Source: Blastococcus sp. HT6-4
GTDB lineage: Bacteria; Actinomycetota; Actinomycetes; Mycobacteriales; Geodermatophilaceae
Direction: 5' to 3'
Assembly: GCF_039679125.1 (NCBI RefSeq)
Contig: NZ_CP155551.1
Coordinates: 62,001-126,000 of the forward strand
DNA: 64,000 nucleotides
Each line of letters opens with the position of its first letter. Positions within the stretch are counted from its first letter, which is position 1. The position numbers and the translations under genes are program-made. This document shows, piece after piece, positions 24,044 to 56,328 of this stretch. Below the pieces are notes generated by a model. The model worked only from the letters and a program-made list of their open reading frames with translations. It had not been told where the DNA came from and made no database searches.

Positions 24044-25386
24044 GCTGCCGCCCGGCGGTGCCGCAGGGCGCCCGGCAGGGCCACGGCCACGGTCAGCAAC
24101 GCGGCCACGGCAAGGCTCACCAGCGAGGCCGACCAGCCGTTGGCCGGGTCGATGCCCAGGTCGAGCTGGCGCTCGGTCCACCACGCCGTCCAGGCGGCGC
24201 CCGGACCGGCGAAGAAGGTCGGCAGCGTCAGCTGGTAGGCCACGAAGCCGGCCACCCAGGGGAGCAGGAGCGCTGGGCGGGCGCGCGCGGTGTCGGAGGT
24301 GTCCCACGCCCCGCGCGGCAGCAGGAAGTAGGCGACGACGAAGACCCCGATGAGCGGGACGAACACCGCGCCGATCAGGAAGAGGAACGGCTCGTAGGCG
24401 GCGAGGTCGAAGGCCAGGGCGAGGGTGGTCGCCACCACGCCGACCGCCACGGCGAGGACCCGGCGGTCGAGGCGGGCGACCACGTTCTGCGCCGACACCG
24501 CCGTCGAGTACACGTTGGCGAACGCCTCGTCGACCTCCACCACGAGCAGCACCAGCACGGCGACCAGGCCCAGCGGCACGGCGAGCATGGCGTCGATGAC
24601 GTCGAGCCCGCCGCGGCCGTAGGCGGCCAGGGCGATCACCCCGAGGCTGAACATGGCCACGGTCGCCAGGCCGTAGCCGGACGCCGTCCCGACGAAGGCG
24701 GTCCGCCCGCTGCGGACGTGCCGGGTGTAGTCGGCCGCCAGCGGGAACCACGAGATCGGCAGGGCGATGACGATGTCGGTCGCCGTCCAGAAGGACGTCG
24801 CCCCGCCCTCGGTGACCGGCGGCAGCGGCTCGGACAGGACCTGGACGAAGAGGTACACGATCGCGGCGATCGCTGCCCAGACGGCGTAGCGCGCGAGCAC
24901 CCGCACCACACCGAGCGGGCGCAGCGCCATCAGCGTGGCGAAGGTGCCCGCGGCGAGCGCGAACGGCCAGCGCGGCGCGTCGAGGGCCCGCGCGGCGGCC
25001 TCGGAGATGATCAGGATCTCGAAGGCGGCCCAGCCGACGCACTGCACCAGGTTGAAGCCGGTGGGCAGGAACGAGGTCCGCCGCCCCAGCAGGCCGCGGA
25101 GCAGCACCATCGCCGGCACGCCCTCGCGGGCGCCGGCGGCGGCGCCCAGCCCCAGCAGCACCGAGCCGATGACCGCGCCGACGACGACGGCCCCGATCGT
25201 GTGCCACAGCGGCCGGTCGGCGAGGACCACGAAGGTGGCCGCCACGGGCAGCAGCAGGCTGATGCCCAGGCTGGCCCAGAGCCCGGCGGTCTCCCGCAGG
25301 CCGAGGGTCCGGGGCGGCGGCTCGGACAGGGTGAGCGGCGCGTCCTCCCCGCGGGTGGCTGCGCCGACGGCTCCGGAACTGCTCAT
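24040..25386 (-). CDS. cytX: CytX-like NCS1 permease, probable hydroxymethylpyrimidine transporter
   Basis: This 448-residue protein has about 12 hydrophobic segments and the cytosine/purine permease (NCS1) pattern, including GFNLVQCVGWAAFEILI in the third segment and PISWFPLAADYTRH in the sixth. CytX members are found with thiamine genes and are thought to import HMP. A TPP riboswitch directly upstream and the overlapping thiE gene support that. The ATG at 25386 uses the AGGGAG at the 3' end of the riboswitch as its ribosome binding site. Substrate is inferred from context. Confidence 0.88.
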   Translation of the reverse strand: MSSSGAVGAATRGEDAPLTLSEPPPRTLGLRETAGLWASLGISLLLPVAATFVVLADRPLWHTIGAVVVGAVIGSVLLGLGAAAGAREGVPAMVLLRGLLGRRTSFLPTGFNLVQCVGWAAFEILIISEAAARALDAPRWPFALAAGTFATLMALRPLGVVRVLARYAVWAAIAAIVYLFVQVLSEPLPPVTEGGATSFWTATDIVIALPISWFPLAADYTRHVRSGRTAFVGTASGYGLATVAMFSLGVIALAAYGRGGLDVIDAMLAVPLGLVAVLVLLVVEVDEAFANVYSTAVSAQNVVARLDRRVLAVAVGVVATTLALAFDLAAYEPFLFLIGAVFVPLIGVFVVAYFLLPRGAWDTSDTARARPALLLPWVAGFVAYQLTLPTFFAGPGAAWTAWWTERQLDLGIDPANGWSASLVSLAVAALLTVAVALPGALRHRRAAA

Positions 25387-25387
25387 G

Positions 25388-25485
25388 ATCACTCCCTACG
25401 CCGGCATTACCCGGTCAGGTTCCAGCGGTCGGCGGCGCGGCAGCCGCCCTCTCAGCCCGGTCGATCCGAGCTCCCGCACCACGGC
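25388..25485 (-). promoter_or_regulatory. TPP riboswitch (THI element) controlling cytX-thiE-thiO-thiS-thiG-tenI
   Basis: On the minus strand the conserved THI-box parts occur in order: CGGGAGCTCGG, GGGCTGAGAGGG, then GGAACCTGACCGGGTAATG and CCGGCGTAGGGAG. The last stretch includes the Shine-Dalgarno sequence of the permease gene, only 5 bases from its ATG. Binding of TPP would therefore directly hide the ribosome binding site. Six overlapping or near-touching genes follow, so the whole biosynthetic operon is likely repressed by thiamine. Confidence 0.95.
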
Positions 25486-25519
25486 CTCGGCCGTGACACC
25501 GCCACCCTAGGGGGTCTCG

Positions 25520-29011: not shown

Positions 29012-29635
29012 TCAGACGCGCTGGCGGCCCGCGGCGAAGGAGCTCAGCGCCCCCGTCCGGGCCAGCGCGCGGACCAGCAGCAGGCCGACCACACCGGCGA
29101 GCAGCACGCTGGAGAGCACGGTGAACACGGCGTAGGCCACGTTCAGCCAGAACGCGACGTCCGGGTAGTAGAGCGTGATGTCGAGGATCGACGTCGACAG
29201 CCCGGCGGTGACGCCGGCCAGGATGGCGGTGCCCCAGCCGAAGCTGCGGTAGCGGGTGAGCAGGAAGCCGAGCTCGGCACCGAGGCCCTGCACGAAGCCG
29301 TAGACGATGATGATCATGCCGTAGGGGGACCCGAGCAGCAGGCTGACCGCGGCCGCGAGGGTGGAGGCGAACACCGCCGCGCCCGGCTTGCGGACCAGCA
29401 GCCCGGCGACGACGCCGGGCATCAGGTAGACGCCGTTGCGCAGCCCCTTGATCGGCGGGAAGAAGTCCAGCGGGGTCGAGGTGGCCTCGCCGACGAGGTT
29501 CCACGCCCAGAAGACGACGCCGAAGGCGACGCCCAGGACGGCGGCGACGACGATGTCGACGGTGCGCCAGCGGACGCCACCGGGGTTGCGCTCGGCGGTG
29601 TCGGCGGACGACGGACGGACGGCCGGTTCGGCCAT
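29012..29635 (-). CDS. ykoE: ECF transporter substrate-binding component YkoE (thiamine precursor)
   Basis: The 207-residue membrane protein has five to six hydrophobic segments and the YkoE-family pattern VLGVAFGVVFWAWN, FPPIKGLRNGVYLMPGVVAGLL, and PYGMIIIVYGFVQGLGAELGF. It is the S component that captures HMP or thiamine for the EcfT/ATPase module encoded just downstream. The ATG at 29635 has a GGAGG ribosome binding site 6 bases upstream, placed right after the riboswitch. A longer frame to 29665 would start within the riboswitch and is rejected. Confidence 0.93.
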   Translation of the reverse strand: MAEPAVRPSSADTAERNPGGVRWRTVDIVVAAVLGVAFGVVFWAWNLVGEATSTPLDFFPPIKGLRNGVYLMPGVVAGLLVRKPGAAVFASTLAAAVSLLLGSPYGMIIIVYGFVQGLGAELGFLLTRYRSFGWGTAILAGVTAGLSTSILDITLYYPDVAFWLNVAYAVFTVLSSVLLAGVVGLLLVRALARTGALSSFAAGRQRV

Positions 29636-29988
29636 GGTGTTCCTCCAGACTCCCTGCGCCGGCATGACCCGGATCAGGTTCGAGGGTCTGCGGTGTCCCG
29701 CACTCTCAGCGCCGAAGCGCTCCCCTGCTGTGAATGTGTGTTCAGTTGTGCCGCCGACCCTAGATGCAGGGCCCGGGGTAGGAGCGACCGGGCTTCGCCG
29801 GCTTCTCGATCACTCGTCCGGCAGCGCGCCGAGGCACCCGGTGGCCGCCGCCGGGAATGCGGCCGAGCTTCTGACGGGTATCGGCTGACATGGTCCTCAG
29901 ATCGCTCGCACCGCAGAGAGGGGCACCTCGTCCGCCATTCTCTCCGCAGGCGACTGGACGGCAGTCCGTTGCGTCATGGGGAGATGGC
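29636..29988. other. Intergenic region holding a TPP riboswitch; remainder without a clear gene
   Basis: The left third is the riboswitch. The remaining 250 bases have somewhat lower GC than neighbours and hold no convincing gene. They should contain the promoter of the ykoEDC-like operon (minus strand) and that of the small gene at 29989 (plus strand). Confidence 0.5.
29648..29730 (-). promoter_or_regulatory. TPP riboswitch (THI element) controlling the ykoEDC-like operon
   Basis: On the minus strand the element reads GGGGAGCGC, GGCGCTGAGAGTGCGG, then CGAACCTGATCCGGGTCATG and CCGGCGCAGGGAG, the standard TPP aptamer. The ykoE ribosome binding site lies a few bases beyond its 3' end. Thus uptake is under the same metabolite as the biosynthetic operon 4 kb away. 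Confidence 0.95.
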
Positions 29989-51522: not shown

Positions 51523-53415
51523 CTACAGGACGTCGAACTCGTTGAACGCGGCGCCGCCGGAGAGGGTGGCGTAGCCCGGCCCGCGGTCGAAGAACGGCTC
51601 CTCGCCGGTGCGCGCGGCCCGCAGCGACGCACGCAGCTCCTCGGTCGCCCCGAGGTCGGCCAGGCCGTCGTCGAGGACGACGACGCCGTAGTCCTCCCGC
51701 GCGCCGGCCACCGACACCTTGCGCCAGGCGATGTCCCGCAGCACCTCGTCCACCGGCCGCTCCAGCGGGTCGCCCCAGCCGCCGCCACCCGTCGTCCGGA
51801 TCCGCACCACCGTGCCGGCCTTCAGCGGCTCGGCGTCGGCGAGCGCGTCCACCTCGTGCTCGTCGGGGCCACCCGGGTCGACGGTGATCTGGAACGGCCG
51901 GCCGGCCTTGCCGCCCTTCACCCCCCAGCAGGCGAGGATCGAGCGGTCGGCGATCGACATGAAGTGCGCGTCGCGGAGCACCCGGATGTGCTTCTCGTAG
52001 CCGCAGCCGCCGCGGTACCGGCCGGGGCCGCCGGAGTCCATCGCCAGCCCGAGCCGCTCGACGCGCAGCGGGAAACGGCCCTCGGTGAACTCGGTCGGCA
52101 GGTTCCGGGAGTCGGGGACGACGTGGATGGTGTCCTCGCCGTCGGCGTAGTACCGCCCGCCGGACCCGCCGCCGAGCACCTCGCGCATGAGGTACGGCTC
52201 GCCGTCGACGTCCGTGCCGTAGACGCCGGTGTAGCGGATCGTCTCCTGGTCGGCGGGCATCCGGCCGCCGGTGGCCTTGGCCAGCACGCCGGCGAGGACG
52301 CCGAGCAGCCGCAGGATCACGAACGTCCGGGCGTTCGTCGGCGCCGGGAAGATCGGGGTGAGCAGCGTCCCCTTCTCGGGGAACCGCATCTCGATCAGCG
52401 GCACGACGCCCTCGTTGACGTCCAGCTGCGCCATCCGCTCCGGGCTCTCGGCCAGGTTGCGCAGGATCGGCGCCAGCCACTTCTTCAGGAAGTTGCCGTC
52501 GGCGTAGTCGCCGCAGTGGTTGATCGGGCCCTTGGCCTGCGGGCCGGTGCCGGTGAAGTCGATGACCAGCGGCGTCTCCTGGGTGGAGTCCATGGTCAGC
52601 GTGATGCGCTGGCGGTGCAGCTTCGGCTCGTCCACGCCGTCGTGCTCGGCGTAGTCCTCCCAGACGTAGGTGCCGTCGGGGATCTGGCTCAGGATCTCCC
52701 GCCGGTAGACCTCGGTGGAGCTGGCGAGGATGACGTCGAACGCCGCCTCGACGGCTTCGACCCCGTACCGGTCGAACAGCTCACCGAGCCGGCGTGCCCC
52801 GGCCAGGCAGGCCGAGCACTCGGCGTCGAGGTCGGCGGCCAGCGAGTCGGGCATCCGCGAGTTGCGCGTCATGATCTTCAGCGCGCTCTCGTTGGGCACG
52901 CCGCGGTCCCACAGCTTGATCGGGGGGACCATCAGGCCCTCCTCGTACACGCTGGTGGCCGCCGACGGCATCGAGCCGGGCACCGCGCCGCCGATGTCGT
53001 CGTGGTGGCCGAACGCCTGGATGAACGCGACGACCCGCGGCTCGCCGCCGTCCGCGGACGCGAAGACCGGCACGGTCACGCAGAGGTCGGGCAGGTGGCC
53101 GATGCCGCCCTCGGAGGCGTAGACGTCGTTGTGGAAGAAGACGTCCCCCACCTGCATCGTCTCGATCGGGTAGTCGCGCACCACCGGGTGCACGAGCGCC
53201 GAGTACGACCGGCCGGTGAGCTTGCGCAGGTTCCGGTCGTGGATGCCGGCCCGGAAGTCGTGCGCGTCGCGGATCATCGGCGAGCGCGAGGTCCGGCCGA
53301 TCGAGGTCTCGACCTCCTTCTCGATCGCCGCCAGCGTGCCGGCGACGATCTCGACGAGGACCGGGTCGGCGTCGACCGTCGTGTCGTTCAGCGGCCCCGT
53401 CGGGAAGGCGCTCAT
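51523..53415 (-). CDS. hyuB: Hydantoinase/oxoprolinase B subunit (HyuB)
   Basis: The 630-residue protein matches the hydantoinase B / acetophenone-acetone carboxylase alpha family: VGDVFFHNDVYASEGGIGHLPD, AFGHHDDIGGAVPGSM, YEEGLMVPPIKL, GGSGGRYYADGED, DSGGPGRYRGGCGYEKH and TTGGGGWGDPLER. It works with the HyuA subunit whose gene overlaps its start (ATGA-type 4-base overlap). ATP-dependent opening of a cyclic imide or carboxylation of a ketone are both possible. Substrate is not evident. Confidence 0.93.
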   Translation of the reverse strand: MSAFPTGPLNDTTVDADPVLVEIVAGTLAAIEKEVETSIGRTSRSPMIRDAHDFRAGIHDRNLRKLTGRSYSALVHPVVRDYPIETMQVGDVFFHNDVYASEGGIGHLPDLCVTVPVFASADGGEPRVVAFIQAFGHHDDIGGAVPGSMPSAATSVYEEGLMVPPIKLWDRGVPNESALKIMTRNSRMPDSLAADLDAECSACLAGARRLGELFDRYGVEAVEAAFDVILASSTEVYRREILSQIPDGTYVWEDYAEHDGVDEPKLHRQRITLTMDSTQETPLVIDFTGTGPQAKGPINHCGDYADGNFLKKWLAPILRNLAESPERMAQLDVNEGVVPLIEMRFPEKGTLLTPIFPAPTNARTFVILRLLGVLAGVLAKATGGRMPADQETIRYTGVYGTDVDGEPYLMREVLGGGSGGRYYADGEDTIHVVPDSRNLPTEFTEGRFPLRVERLGLAMDSGGPGRYRGGCGYEKHIRVLRDAHFMSIADRSILACWGVKGGKAGRPFQITVDPGGPDEHEVDALADAEPLKAGTVVRIRTTGGGGWGDPLERPVDEVLRDIAWRKVSVAGAREDYGVVVLDDGLADLGATEELRASLRAARTGEEPFFDRGPGYATLSGGAAFNEFDVL

Positions 53416-55484
53416 CGGTCCGTCTCCTTCGTGAGCAGCAGGTTGCCGTAGGCGTCCACGGTGGCGGCGAAGCCGGGGTGCACCGGGACGGTGGAGCCGA
53501 ACTCCTCGATGATCGCGGGGCCGCTGACCACGTCACCGGGCGCGAGGCCGGGCCGGTCGTACGTGCGGGTGTCGACCAAGTCGTCGAAGAAGACCGGGCG
53601 GCTGCCGGTCACGGCGCGCTCGGGCCCGCCCTCGCGCGCGGGGAGCTCCACCAGGTCGGGGCGGCGGATCGGCCCGATCCCGCTGACCCGGAGGTTGACC
53701 CACTCGACGGCCTGCCGCGGGTCGTCGGCGAAGTCGTAGCCGTAGAGCCGGCGGTGGGCTGCGTGGAAGGCCTGTGCGACCTCCTCGGCCGCGGCGGCGT
53801 CCAGCTCGCCGTCGGTCACCGGGACCCGCACCTCGAACGCCTGGCCCACGTAGCGCAGGTCCGCGGTGCGCTGCATGCGCTGGGCGTCGCGCGTGAAGCC
53901 CTCGCCGTCCAGGGCGGTGCGCGCCTGGTCCTCCAGCGCTCCGTACACCGCGCGCACCGGCTCGAGGTCGAGGTCGACGTGCTTGCTGACGACGGTCTGC
54001 ACGTAGTCGTTGCGGACGTCGACGGTGAGCAGCCCGAAGGCGCTGACGTTGCCCGGGTTCGGCGGCACCAGCGTGCGCGGGAGGTTGAGGATGTCCATGA
54101 GCCGGCAGGCGAGCAGCGAACCGGAACCACCGAACGTGGTGAGGGTGAAGTCGCGGACGTCGAGGCCCTTGGCGACCGTCACCTGGCGCAGCGCGTTGGC
54201 CTGGTTCCAGGCGGAGATCTCGAGGATGCCGGTGGCGGTCCGCTCCAGCGAGAGGTCGAGCTTCCCGCCCAGCGTGGTCAGGCCCTCGCGCGCCGCGTCC
54301 ACCGACAGCGGGATCTCCCCGCCCAGCAGGTGCGGGGGGATCCGGCCGAGGACGACGTGCGCGTCGGTGACGGTGGGCTGGTCGCCCCCGTTCGGGTAGC
54401 AGATCGGGCCGGGGTCGGCGCCGGCCGACTTCGGGCCGACCTTGAGCGTGCCCTCCGGCGACAGCCAGGCGATCGAGCCGCCACCGGCGCCGACGGTGAC
54501 GACGTCGATCATCGGGATCTTGGACGGGTAGTCGCCGACCGAGCCCTCGGTGGTGAGCGCGGGCTCGCCGTCGATGACCACGGTGACGTCGGTGGAGGTG
54601 CCGCCGCCGTCGCAGGTGAGGATCCGGTCGAACCCGGCGGTGCCCGCGATCAGCGCCGCGCCCAGGGCGCCGGCGGCCGGGCCGGAGAGCATCGTGGTGA
54701 TCGGCTGGTGCACCACCTCGGCGGCCGAGAGCACACCGCCGTTGCTCTTCATGACGTAGAACGGCACGCCGGGGGCGATCTCGTCCAGGCGGGTGCGGAT
54801 GTTGGTGACGTAGGCGCCGACCTTCGGCTTCACCGCGGCGTCGACCAGCGTGGTCACCGACCGCTCGTACTCGCGGTACTCGCGCAGCACCTGGGAGCTG
54901 ATGCTCACCACCGCGCCGGGATGTTCCACGTGGAGCACGTCGAGCATCGCCTGCTCGTGCGCGTCGTTCGCGTAGGCGTGCAGGAAGCAGACGCCGATGG
55001 TGGTGATGCCGGCCTCGCGGAAGAACCGGGCGGCCGCGCGGGCGTCGTCCTCGTCGAACGGGCGCACCTCGGTGCCGGTGTGGTCCAGGCGCCCGCGCAC
55101 CGTGCGCACCAGGTCGGCCGGGACGATCCGCGGCGGCTTGACCCAGAAGTAGCTGTTGCCGTAGCCGTCGGGCACCGACTGGCGGGCGATCTCCAGCACC
55201 GACTCGTAGCCCTCGGTGGTGATGAACCCGATCCGGTCCAGCTTGCCCTCGAGCAGCTGGTTGGTCGCGACCGTGGTGCCGTGGCTGACCGCGGTGACGG
55301 CCTCGCCGGGCAGGCCCATCAGGTCGAGGACCTTGCGAACCCCGGTCAGGAAGCCCTCGGCCGGGTCGGCCGGCGTCGACGGGGTCTTGGTCGTGGTCGT
55401 CCGACCGGTCTGCTCGTCCACGGCGACGACGTCGGTGAACGTCCCGCCGGTGTCGATCCCGATCCGAACCCGGCGCTCGCTCAT
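53412..55484 (-). CDS. hyuA: Hydantoinase/oxoprolinase A subunit (HyuA)
   Basis: The 690-residue ATPase subunit has the ASKHA-type phosphate motifs: IGIDTGGTFTDVVAVD at the N-terminus, SHGTTVATNQLLEG, CFLHAYAN, LSGPAAGALGAA, TCDGGGTSTDV and GGSGSLLACRLMDIL. The family uses ATP to activate substrates for the B subunit. A small transport or regulatory gene is not present, so the operon is just hyuA-hyuB. The ATG is preceded by a short promoter-like AT-rich stretch. Confidence 0.94.
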   Translation of the reverse strand: MSERRVRIGIDTGGTFTDVVAVDEQTGRTTTTKTPSTPADPAEGFLTGVRKVLDLMGLPGEAVTAVSHGTTVATNQLLEGKLDRIGFITTEGYESVLEIARQSVPDGYGNSYFWVKPPRIVPADLVRTVRGRLDHTGTEVRPFDEDDARAAARFFREAGITTIGVCFLHAYANDAHEQAMLDVLHVEHPGAVVSISSQVLREYREYERSVTTLVDAAVKPKVGAYVTNIRTRLDEIAPGVPFYVMKSNGGVLSAAEVVHQPITTMLSGPAAGALGAALIAGTAGFDRILTCDGGGTSTDVTVVIDGEPALTTEGSVGDYPSKIPMIDVVTVGAGGGSIAWLSPEGTLKVGPKSAGADPGPICYPNGGDQPTVTDAHVVLGRIPPHLLGGEIPLSVDAAREGLTTLGGKLDLSLERTATGILEISAWNQANALRQVTVAKGLDVRDFTLTTFGGSGSLLACRLMDILNLPRTLVPPNPGNVSAFGLLTVDVRNDYVQTVVSKHVDLDLEPVRAVYGALEDQARTALDGEGFTRDAQRMQRTADLRYVGQAFEVRVPVTDGELDAAAAEEVAQAFHAAHRRLYGYDFADDPRQAVEWVNLRVSGIGPIRRPDLVELPAREGGPERAVTGSRPVFFDDLVDTRTYDRPGLAPGDVVSGPAIIEEFGSTVPVHPGFAATVDAYGNLLLTKETDR

Positions 55485-55668: not shown

Positions 55669-56328
55669 ATGGACACCACCGAGCTGCTCGCACTGCGGTC
55701 CGACGACCGCGCGGCCCTGCTCCTGGTCGGCCTGCGCGGCGACTGGTAGCCCTACTGCTGCGCCCAGGCGGTCCGCCTGGCCCGGTCCCTGCCCCGCCTC
55801 GCCGCCGCCGGCACCGAGGTGGTGCTCGCCTCGGTCGATCCCCCCGAGGTCCAGCTCGCGTTCGACCGCACCTGGCACGTCCCCTTCCGCTGGGTGAGCG
55901 ACCCGGACGGTGAGCGGCTGGCCCGGCCGCTGGGCGCCTGGGACGACGACGCGTCGATCTTCCGGCCGGTCGTCGTCGCGGTCGGCCCGGACGGCCGCGA
56001 GGTGTTCCGCGAGCTCTCCCGCGACTTCACCGACCGGCCCGACGACGAGCCGGTGCTGGCCGCCGTCGAGGCGCTCGGCCTCCCGGCGTTGCCGGAACCC
56101 GAGCCGTGGGCGCCCGAGGGCGTCGAGCCCCGGCCGTCGAAGCGGGCCTTCACGCCCGGCGCCTTCATCCCCTACTTCCGCGCCATCAAGTTCAACACCC
56201 TCGCGCTGAGCGAGCGGATGGTCGACGAGCGGGACCGGGAGGAGGTGCTCACCGAGCACCGGATGGCCGTCTCCTTCCTCGACACGTTCGACCGGTGGCG
56301 CGCCGAGCACCCGCCGGAGAGCCAGTAG
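55669..56328 (+). CDS. Thioredoxin-fold AhpC/TSA-like redox protein read through an in-frame UAG, probable selenoprotein
   Basis: From ATG 55669 the frame encodes ELLALRSDDRAALLLVGLR and then GDW-[UAG]-PYCCAQAVRLARSL. It continues without other stops through a peroxiredoxin-like fold (VVLASVDPPEVQLAF, FRWVSDPDGERLARPLGAWDD, VVVAVGPDGREVFRELS) to a UAG at 56326. The internal UAG (55747-55749, codon 27) falls at the first position of a CPYC-type redox site in the expected strand-loop-helix. A GGUC hairpin 20 nt later looks like a SECIS element. I infer UAG-encoded Sec giving a UPYC site. Alternatives are a nonsense mutation or re-initiation at GTG 55819. The protein would be 219 residues. Confidence 0.8.
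55747..55749 (+). other. In-frame UAG, predicted selenocysteine codon
   Basis: The TAG replaces the codon for the first Cys of x-Pro-Tyr-Cys. Reaching TAG from either Cys codon needs two base changes, so simple mutation of a Cys codon is less likely than a recoded UAG. Confidence 0.75.
55764..55780 (+). promoter_or_regulatory. SECIS-like hairpin
   Basis: CCAGGCGGUCCGCCUGG is a perfect palindrome of 17 nt: a 6-bp stem and GGUCC loop. The GGUC starts 20 nt after the UAG. In the E. coli fdhF SECIS a GGUC apical loop starts about 18 nt after the UGA. The bulged U of the E. coli element is not present. Confidence 0.7.

Follow-up and report, generated by a model that had tools for sequence, protein, structure and literature searches.

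A gene of the AhpC type with UAG as its selenocysteine (Sec) codon has been on record in Blastococcus since 2017. According to Santesmasses et al. (2017; PMC5330540), Blastococcus saxobsidens DD2 carries an AhpC with a Sec-TAG, and a figure legend there places a bSECIS after the UAG and shows a tRNA-Sec with the anticodon CUA in the same strain. An AhpC with Sec encoded by UAG is therefore a kind of protein already known in this genus. The same source quotes Mukai et al. (2016) as having reported UAG-Sec in FDH and in UGSC-motif proteins of Geodermatophilaceae. Prx-like selenoproteins with a UxxC centre, and likewise OsmC-like selenoproteins, are known in forms that use UGA (PMC1088965 and PMC13188914).

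The window analysed here, a stretch of 64,000 nucleotides from Blastococcus sp. HT6-4, contains a gene that belongs beside these systems. We read positions 55669-56328 as encoding a peroxiredoxin-fold redox protein in which codon 27, a UAG, is likely translated as Sec by the organism's own tRNA-Sec(CUA), and we put the probability of this reading at roughly 93%. Support for it is established at the level of sequence, in the genes, the anticodon, the conservation, the codon-anticodon switch and the hairpin pairing. The relevant features are as follows.

55669..56328, forward strand: gene for an AhpC/TSA-type UxxC redox protein; PF00578 match across the TAG, 30 orthologues in 112 family genomes
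55747..55749, forward strand: in-frame UAG that is predicted to encode Sec at residue 27; TAG in 30/30 family orthologues
55756..55758, forward strand: codon for Cys30, expected to act with Sec27 in the UxxC centre; invariant in 36/36 aligned proteins
55764..55780, forward strand: predicted SECIS hairpin; pairing, covariation score, fixed four-fold codons
55657..55662, forward strand: TANNNT (TAGGGT), perhaps the -10 element for a leaderless transcript; 12 nt upstream of the ATG
55819..56328, forward strand: post-TAG piece from GTG 55819 (169 aa); a length listed in databases for many relatives
56155..56307, forward strand: pair of C-terminal helices (residues 163-213); structure model
56326..56328, forward strand: terminal UAG, taken as a real stop; ends 14/28 full-length orthologues

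As stated in the initial annotation, the frame from ATG 55669 to 56328 has a single internal stop, the TAG at 55747-55749, flanked as GDW-TAG-PYCC. If codon 27 is taken to be Sec, the product comprises 219 residues, followed by the stop.

The DD2 genome holds 13 AhpC-TSA matches, one of which bears a TAG, and that one is the orthologue of the window gene, 88% identical to it. From this lone TAG-bearing match among 13 we deduced that the AhpC named in PMC5330540 is the orthologue of the window gene. The question of whether the selenoprotein had been described before, left undecided by the initial annotation, can thus be answered: it had, as the AhpC with Sec-TAG of DD2 (PMC5330540). The two agree in genus grouping, in the position of the TAG codon, in the tRNA-Sec(CUA) and, by the legend, in the bSECIS; they differ in species and in breadth, one genome there as opposed to 30 TAG genomes and TGA forms outside the family here. 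The recoded FDH and UGSC proteins of Mukai et al. (2016), as quoted in PMC5330540, share the tRNA-Sec(CUA) and the UAG at Sec sites, whereas the protein families are others. With the Prx-like UxxC selenoproteins of PMC1088965 and PMC13188914, the window gene has PF00578 and the UxxC centre in common, the codon being UGA there and UAG here.

Homology and coding signal continue across the TAG. The AhpC-TSA model (PF00578) matches residues 16-109 of the read-through product with an E-value of 3.4e-12, so the domain spans the TAG at codon 27, and the peroxiredoxin-like sequence that had been noticed on both sides of this codon is borne out. We scanned the window for in-frame stops preceded by 20 open codons and followed by 50 (n = 434, including 91 TAG); by a two-sided codon-usage score, TAG 55747 ranked second among the 434 stops and first among the 91 TAGs. 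The sole stop ranked above it, TGA 56952, proved to be the end of an ORF read as MarR-type. When the 28 full-length sequences were compared with the window gene, the part ahead of the TAG had a median dN/dS of 0.34, residues 28-144 one of 0.24 and the C-terminal stretch one of 0.53. Of the 30 orthologues, 25 have a TANNNT 12-13 nt ahead of the start codon, against a background of 24 in 9000; its conservation speaks for ATG 55669 as the predicted start and suggests that the transcript is leaderless. The terminal stop of the 28 full-length orthologues is TAG in 14 and TGA in 14.

All 36 aligned proteins contain the AhpC-TSA domain, and the peroxiredoxin fold was matched. U27 and C30 form the UxxC, in which Cys30 is invariant throughout the 36 aligned proteins and aligns with the Cys of the P-x-x-x-T/S-x-x-C motif of 2cx3 and 6q5v; R23 and U27 occupy the places held in those two structures by Pro and Ser/Thr. 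The motif of true peroxiredoxins, P-x-x-x-T/S-x-x-C, is accordingly absent from the protein, which has R-x-x-x-U-x-x-C in its place. Because UxxC stands where true peroxiredoxins have TxxC, the enzyme is best called peroxiredoxin-like. The earlier description of a redox enzyme with a UPYC Sec site holds as a prediction, refined in that the motif of a true peroxiredoxin is missing. The same motif difference separates the protein from AhpE/Bcp-type peroxiredoxins, relative to which its C-terminal helices are extra; these helices (163-213) fall outside the matched solved structures, and the fold search hardly covered residues 140-219. The model for SelL-related redox proteins (NF040769) gave 18.1-18.2 bits, below its curated cut-off of 120.

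The machinery for Sec is encoded elsewhere in the genome, a single contig of 4,297,415 bases. A sel cluster at genome positions 1,308,217-1,312,878 comprises selD on the reverse strand and tRNA-Sec, selA and selB on the forward strand. The presence of selA, selB and selD, on which the initial annotation had made its proposal depend, was confirmed by TIGR00474, TIGR00475 and TIGR00476, all above cut-off, with NCBIfam model scores of 388 bits for selD, 423 for selA and 288 for selB. The tRNA-Sec scored 65.7 bits on the tRNA-Sec model (cut-off 47) and has the anticodon CUA, again as had been expected. ARAGORN labels this CUA tRNA-Sec (L031:9687-9782) as tRNA-Pyl, a trap for automatic annotation. 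We found no PylS match above the cut-off of 178, the values being 22.7 bits in the own genome and 20 bits in that of DD2 (G008); pyrrolysine at UAG 55747 was rejected, PylS matches in both genomes lying far under the cut-off.

Orthologues of the AhpC-like gene were found in 30 of the 112 family genomes searched, at 74-100% identity, and codon 27 is TAG in every one of them; the remaining 82 genomes yielded no match, or weak matches to other AhpC/TSA genes. The frame is open to the end in 28 of the 30. With the same codon TAG in 30/30 orthologues, sequencing error or chance was rejected as the source of TAG 55747. A plasmid search returned no match. Anticodons of tRNA-Sec were determined in 36 family genomes, 33 of which have CUA and three UCA (G027, G030, G032), and in 15 additional orthologue carriers of the family, all with CUA. 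Together, the 33 CUA genomes and the 15 further carriers imply that all 30 TAG carriers possess tRNA-Sec(CUA). Two weak matches were considered as possible UGA-Sec copies inside CUA genomes, G132 C113 and G096 C1, with one TGA each, and were dismissed: both have Cys at the site, the TGA of the former lies beyond the domain, and the latter has no stop within the aligned part.

Outside the family the same column changes its codon. An order-wide search of 397 genomes gave one match at 1e-10 beyond the family (G057, 54% identity), and a phylum sample of 396 genomes gave 39 genomes with such a match besides the own one. We read 30 of these outside loci, G057 and 29 of the 39, and found TGA in 24 and TGC in 6. 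The tRNA-Sec search covered 21 of the 24 TGA genomes (all except G506, G673 and G792) and found UCA in 20, with no match in G548; among the six Cys genomes, five were searched, of which four have UCA and G612 gave no match. A scan of named genomes, in which one of two peptide patterns fixes Cys at the column and which was not designed for TGA forms, showed TGC or TGT in 61 and TAG in 19 of the best 80 of 102 loci; these 19 TAG loci belong to Blastococcus, Modestobacter and Geodermatophilus. The 61 Cys codons bear out the view that the TAG stands where a CPYC-type site has its first Cys, and the alignment of homologues that had been called for shows UAG, UGA or Cys at the column depending on lineage. 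From the codon and anticodon counts, the catalytic column is UAG where the tRNA-Sec is CUA, UGA in UCA genomes and Cys elsewhere. The predicted Sec codon is, as judged by these counts, switched jointly with the tRNA-Sec anticodon. Natural amber Sec of this kind indicates that what makes a codon a Sec codon is the tRNA anticodon acting with a nearby hairpin, rather than UGA itself. In the AhpC-like family one catalytic site occurs with UAG, UGA or Cys, so that the forms can be compared directly.

The predicted SECIS stem pairs 55764-55769 with 55775-55780 around the loop GGUCC (55770-55774), which begins 20 nt past the TAG. Across 18 distinct sequences (14 TAG, 4 TGA) all 108 cells of the six-pair stem are paired, and one of its pairs occurs as G-C, G-U, C-G and U-A, that is, with compensatory changes. 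None of 500 shuffles reached the covariation score and 12 reached the number of pair types; double-sided changes are confined to one of the six stem pairs, a number reached by 168 of the 500 shuffles. When the strands were slid against each other as a control, at most 49% of the stem paired. Within the 15 codons after the TAG, five of seven four-fold codons of invariant residues are fixed, as against one of 53 elsewhere (28 sequences), and when all degenerate codons of invariant residues are taken together, mean diversity is 0.077 after the TAG versus 0.244 elsewhere (permutation p 0.005). When the 57 nt that follow the TAG are folded to minimum energy, the stem is absent in four of 30 orthologues, the window gene included. 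The distant TGA group has its hairpin in another register, with three inner pairs formed in 45/45 cells and variation too low for a covariation test. Pairing and conservation point to a SECIS hairpin just after the UAG, to which SelB is predicted to bind. In the two FDH-type genes of the genome, GGUCU begins 18 nt past the TAG, and in one of them the minimum-energy fold has it as its loop; the SECIS loop of E. coli fdhF is GGUCU too.

We propose that SelA would form Sec on tRNA-Sec(CUA), with selenophosphate supplied by SelD, and that SelB, carrying the Sec-tRNA, would bind the hairpin at 55764-55780 so that UAG 55747 is decoded as Sec, while the terminal UAG of the same gene would still terminate translation. 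Sec27 and Cys30 would then constitute the redox pair: Sec27 would attack the oxidised substrate, and Cys30 would close a selenenylsulfide to be reduced by cellular thiols. The Sec in the protein, the binding of SelB, the chemistry and the substrate are the parts of this scheme that we infer.

Two other explanations deserve to be weighed against translation of the UAG as Sec. Were the TAG an ordinary stop, in a decayed gene or ahead of an independent protein beginning at GTG 55819, in line with the databases, one would not expect a codon that is TAG in 30/30 orthologues, never another stop or a sense codon, with both sides open in 28. The database entries do fit such a stop, for relatives of the gene are listed as pieces of 153-193 aa, with 168-169 aa among them, and all 14 related database proteins examined, that of DD2 included, start at or beyond the TAG codon; yet median dN/dS is 0.34 ahead of the TAG and 0.24 past it, and the TANNNT is conserved ahead of ATG 55669. 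Two orthologues with a one-base length change directly past the TAG also speak for decay. In both of them (G132, L079; G064, L080) the frame is broken by a base missing from the same CCC run, either a sequencing artefact or a genuine change, and identity in the frame downstream still amounts to 75-80%. Since the column is moreover TGA or Cys in other lineages, we consider an ordinary stop very unlikely. The examined database proteins lack the active-site start, and the selenoproteins of these bacteria are therefore probably under-counted.

Even less probable, in our judgement, is read-through of the UAG as a residue other than Sec, be it pyrrolysine, serine, glutamine or a near-cognate. The tRNA-Pyl label from ARAGORN favours this, whereas PylS stays under the cut-off in the own genome and in G008, and the CUA tRNA, with its 65.7 bits on the tRNA-Sec model, is located among selA, selB and selD. 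Ser-tRNA-Sec is a normal intermediate, and serine at the UAG under selenium shortage is conceivable on that account; the alternation of the column with TGA and Cys, however, argues against any non-Sec residue.

Translation of UAG as Sec probably extends to other genes of this genome. A codon scan with loose limits, covering 2.08 of 4.30 Mb, found 63 stops with a two-sided coding signal, 14 of them TAG; stricter limits (1.68 Mb) left five TAGs. Five of the 14 lie in the AhpC-like, two FDH-type, UGSC and OsmC-like genes. The UGSC gene (genome 2,233,196; L234) has one TAG, at ALAD-TAG-GSC, and the two FDH-type genes (genome 311,375 and 3,505,956; L242 and L240) have one each, at NQARI-TAG-HS; these TAGs, too, stand at sites of the Sec type and favour the reading of UAG 55747 as Sec. 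Among ten genomes searched for FDH-type genes, the matches, by a count of stops, contain a single TAG in six more CUA genomes and a single TGA in three with UCA.

The OsmC-like ORF lies outside the window, at genome 2,331,605-2,332,060 (L310:6605-7060), and has its TAG at AAAG-TAG-LTGTF, crossed by a match to PF02566 (E 4.9e-11). The gene is present in 17 of 112 family genomes, DD2 included, with TAG at the codon in all 17. A phylum sample of 392 genomes gave 44 genomes with a match at 1e-15 besides the own one; outside the family the codon is TGA in 29/29 loci read, and some lower-scoring matches are without an internal stop. Evidence for a hairpin is weaker here, with four-fold codons fixed in 4/11 versus 9/56. 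We regard the OsmC-like gene as a probable UAG-coded selenoprotein. A search of the open-licence literature gave no report of the UAG form, and it is absent from the list in PMC5330540; this gene suggests that the count of UAG selenoproteins is still incomplete. It is quite probable that one clade moved its AhpC-like, OsmC-like, FDH-type and UGSC Sec codons from UGA to UAG with a single tRNA-Sec anticodon, UAG remaining a terminator, and that the OsmC-like form has gone unreported. Its UAG-Sec pair also makes such a genome a natural store of components for laboratory selenoprotein production.

Elsewhere in the genome and likewise outside the window, at 621,563 on the reverse strand, a frame read as an FAD-dependent oxidoreductase contains an in-frame TAG that is not at a Cys site and may be a nonsense change or an error. 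Within the window, a gene pair at 51523-55484 on the reverse strand resembles caprolactamase subunits alpha and beta, both under the model cut-offs. Two TPP riboswitches, at 29633-29736 and 25376-25487 of the window, both on the reverse strand, scored above the gathering score.
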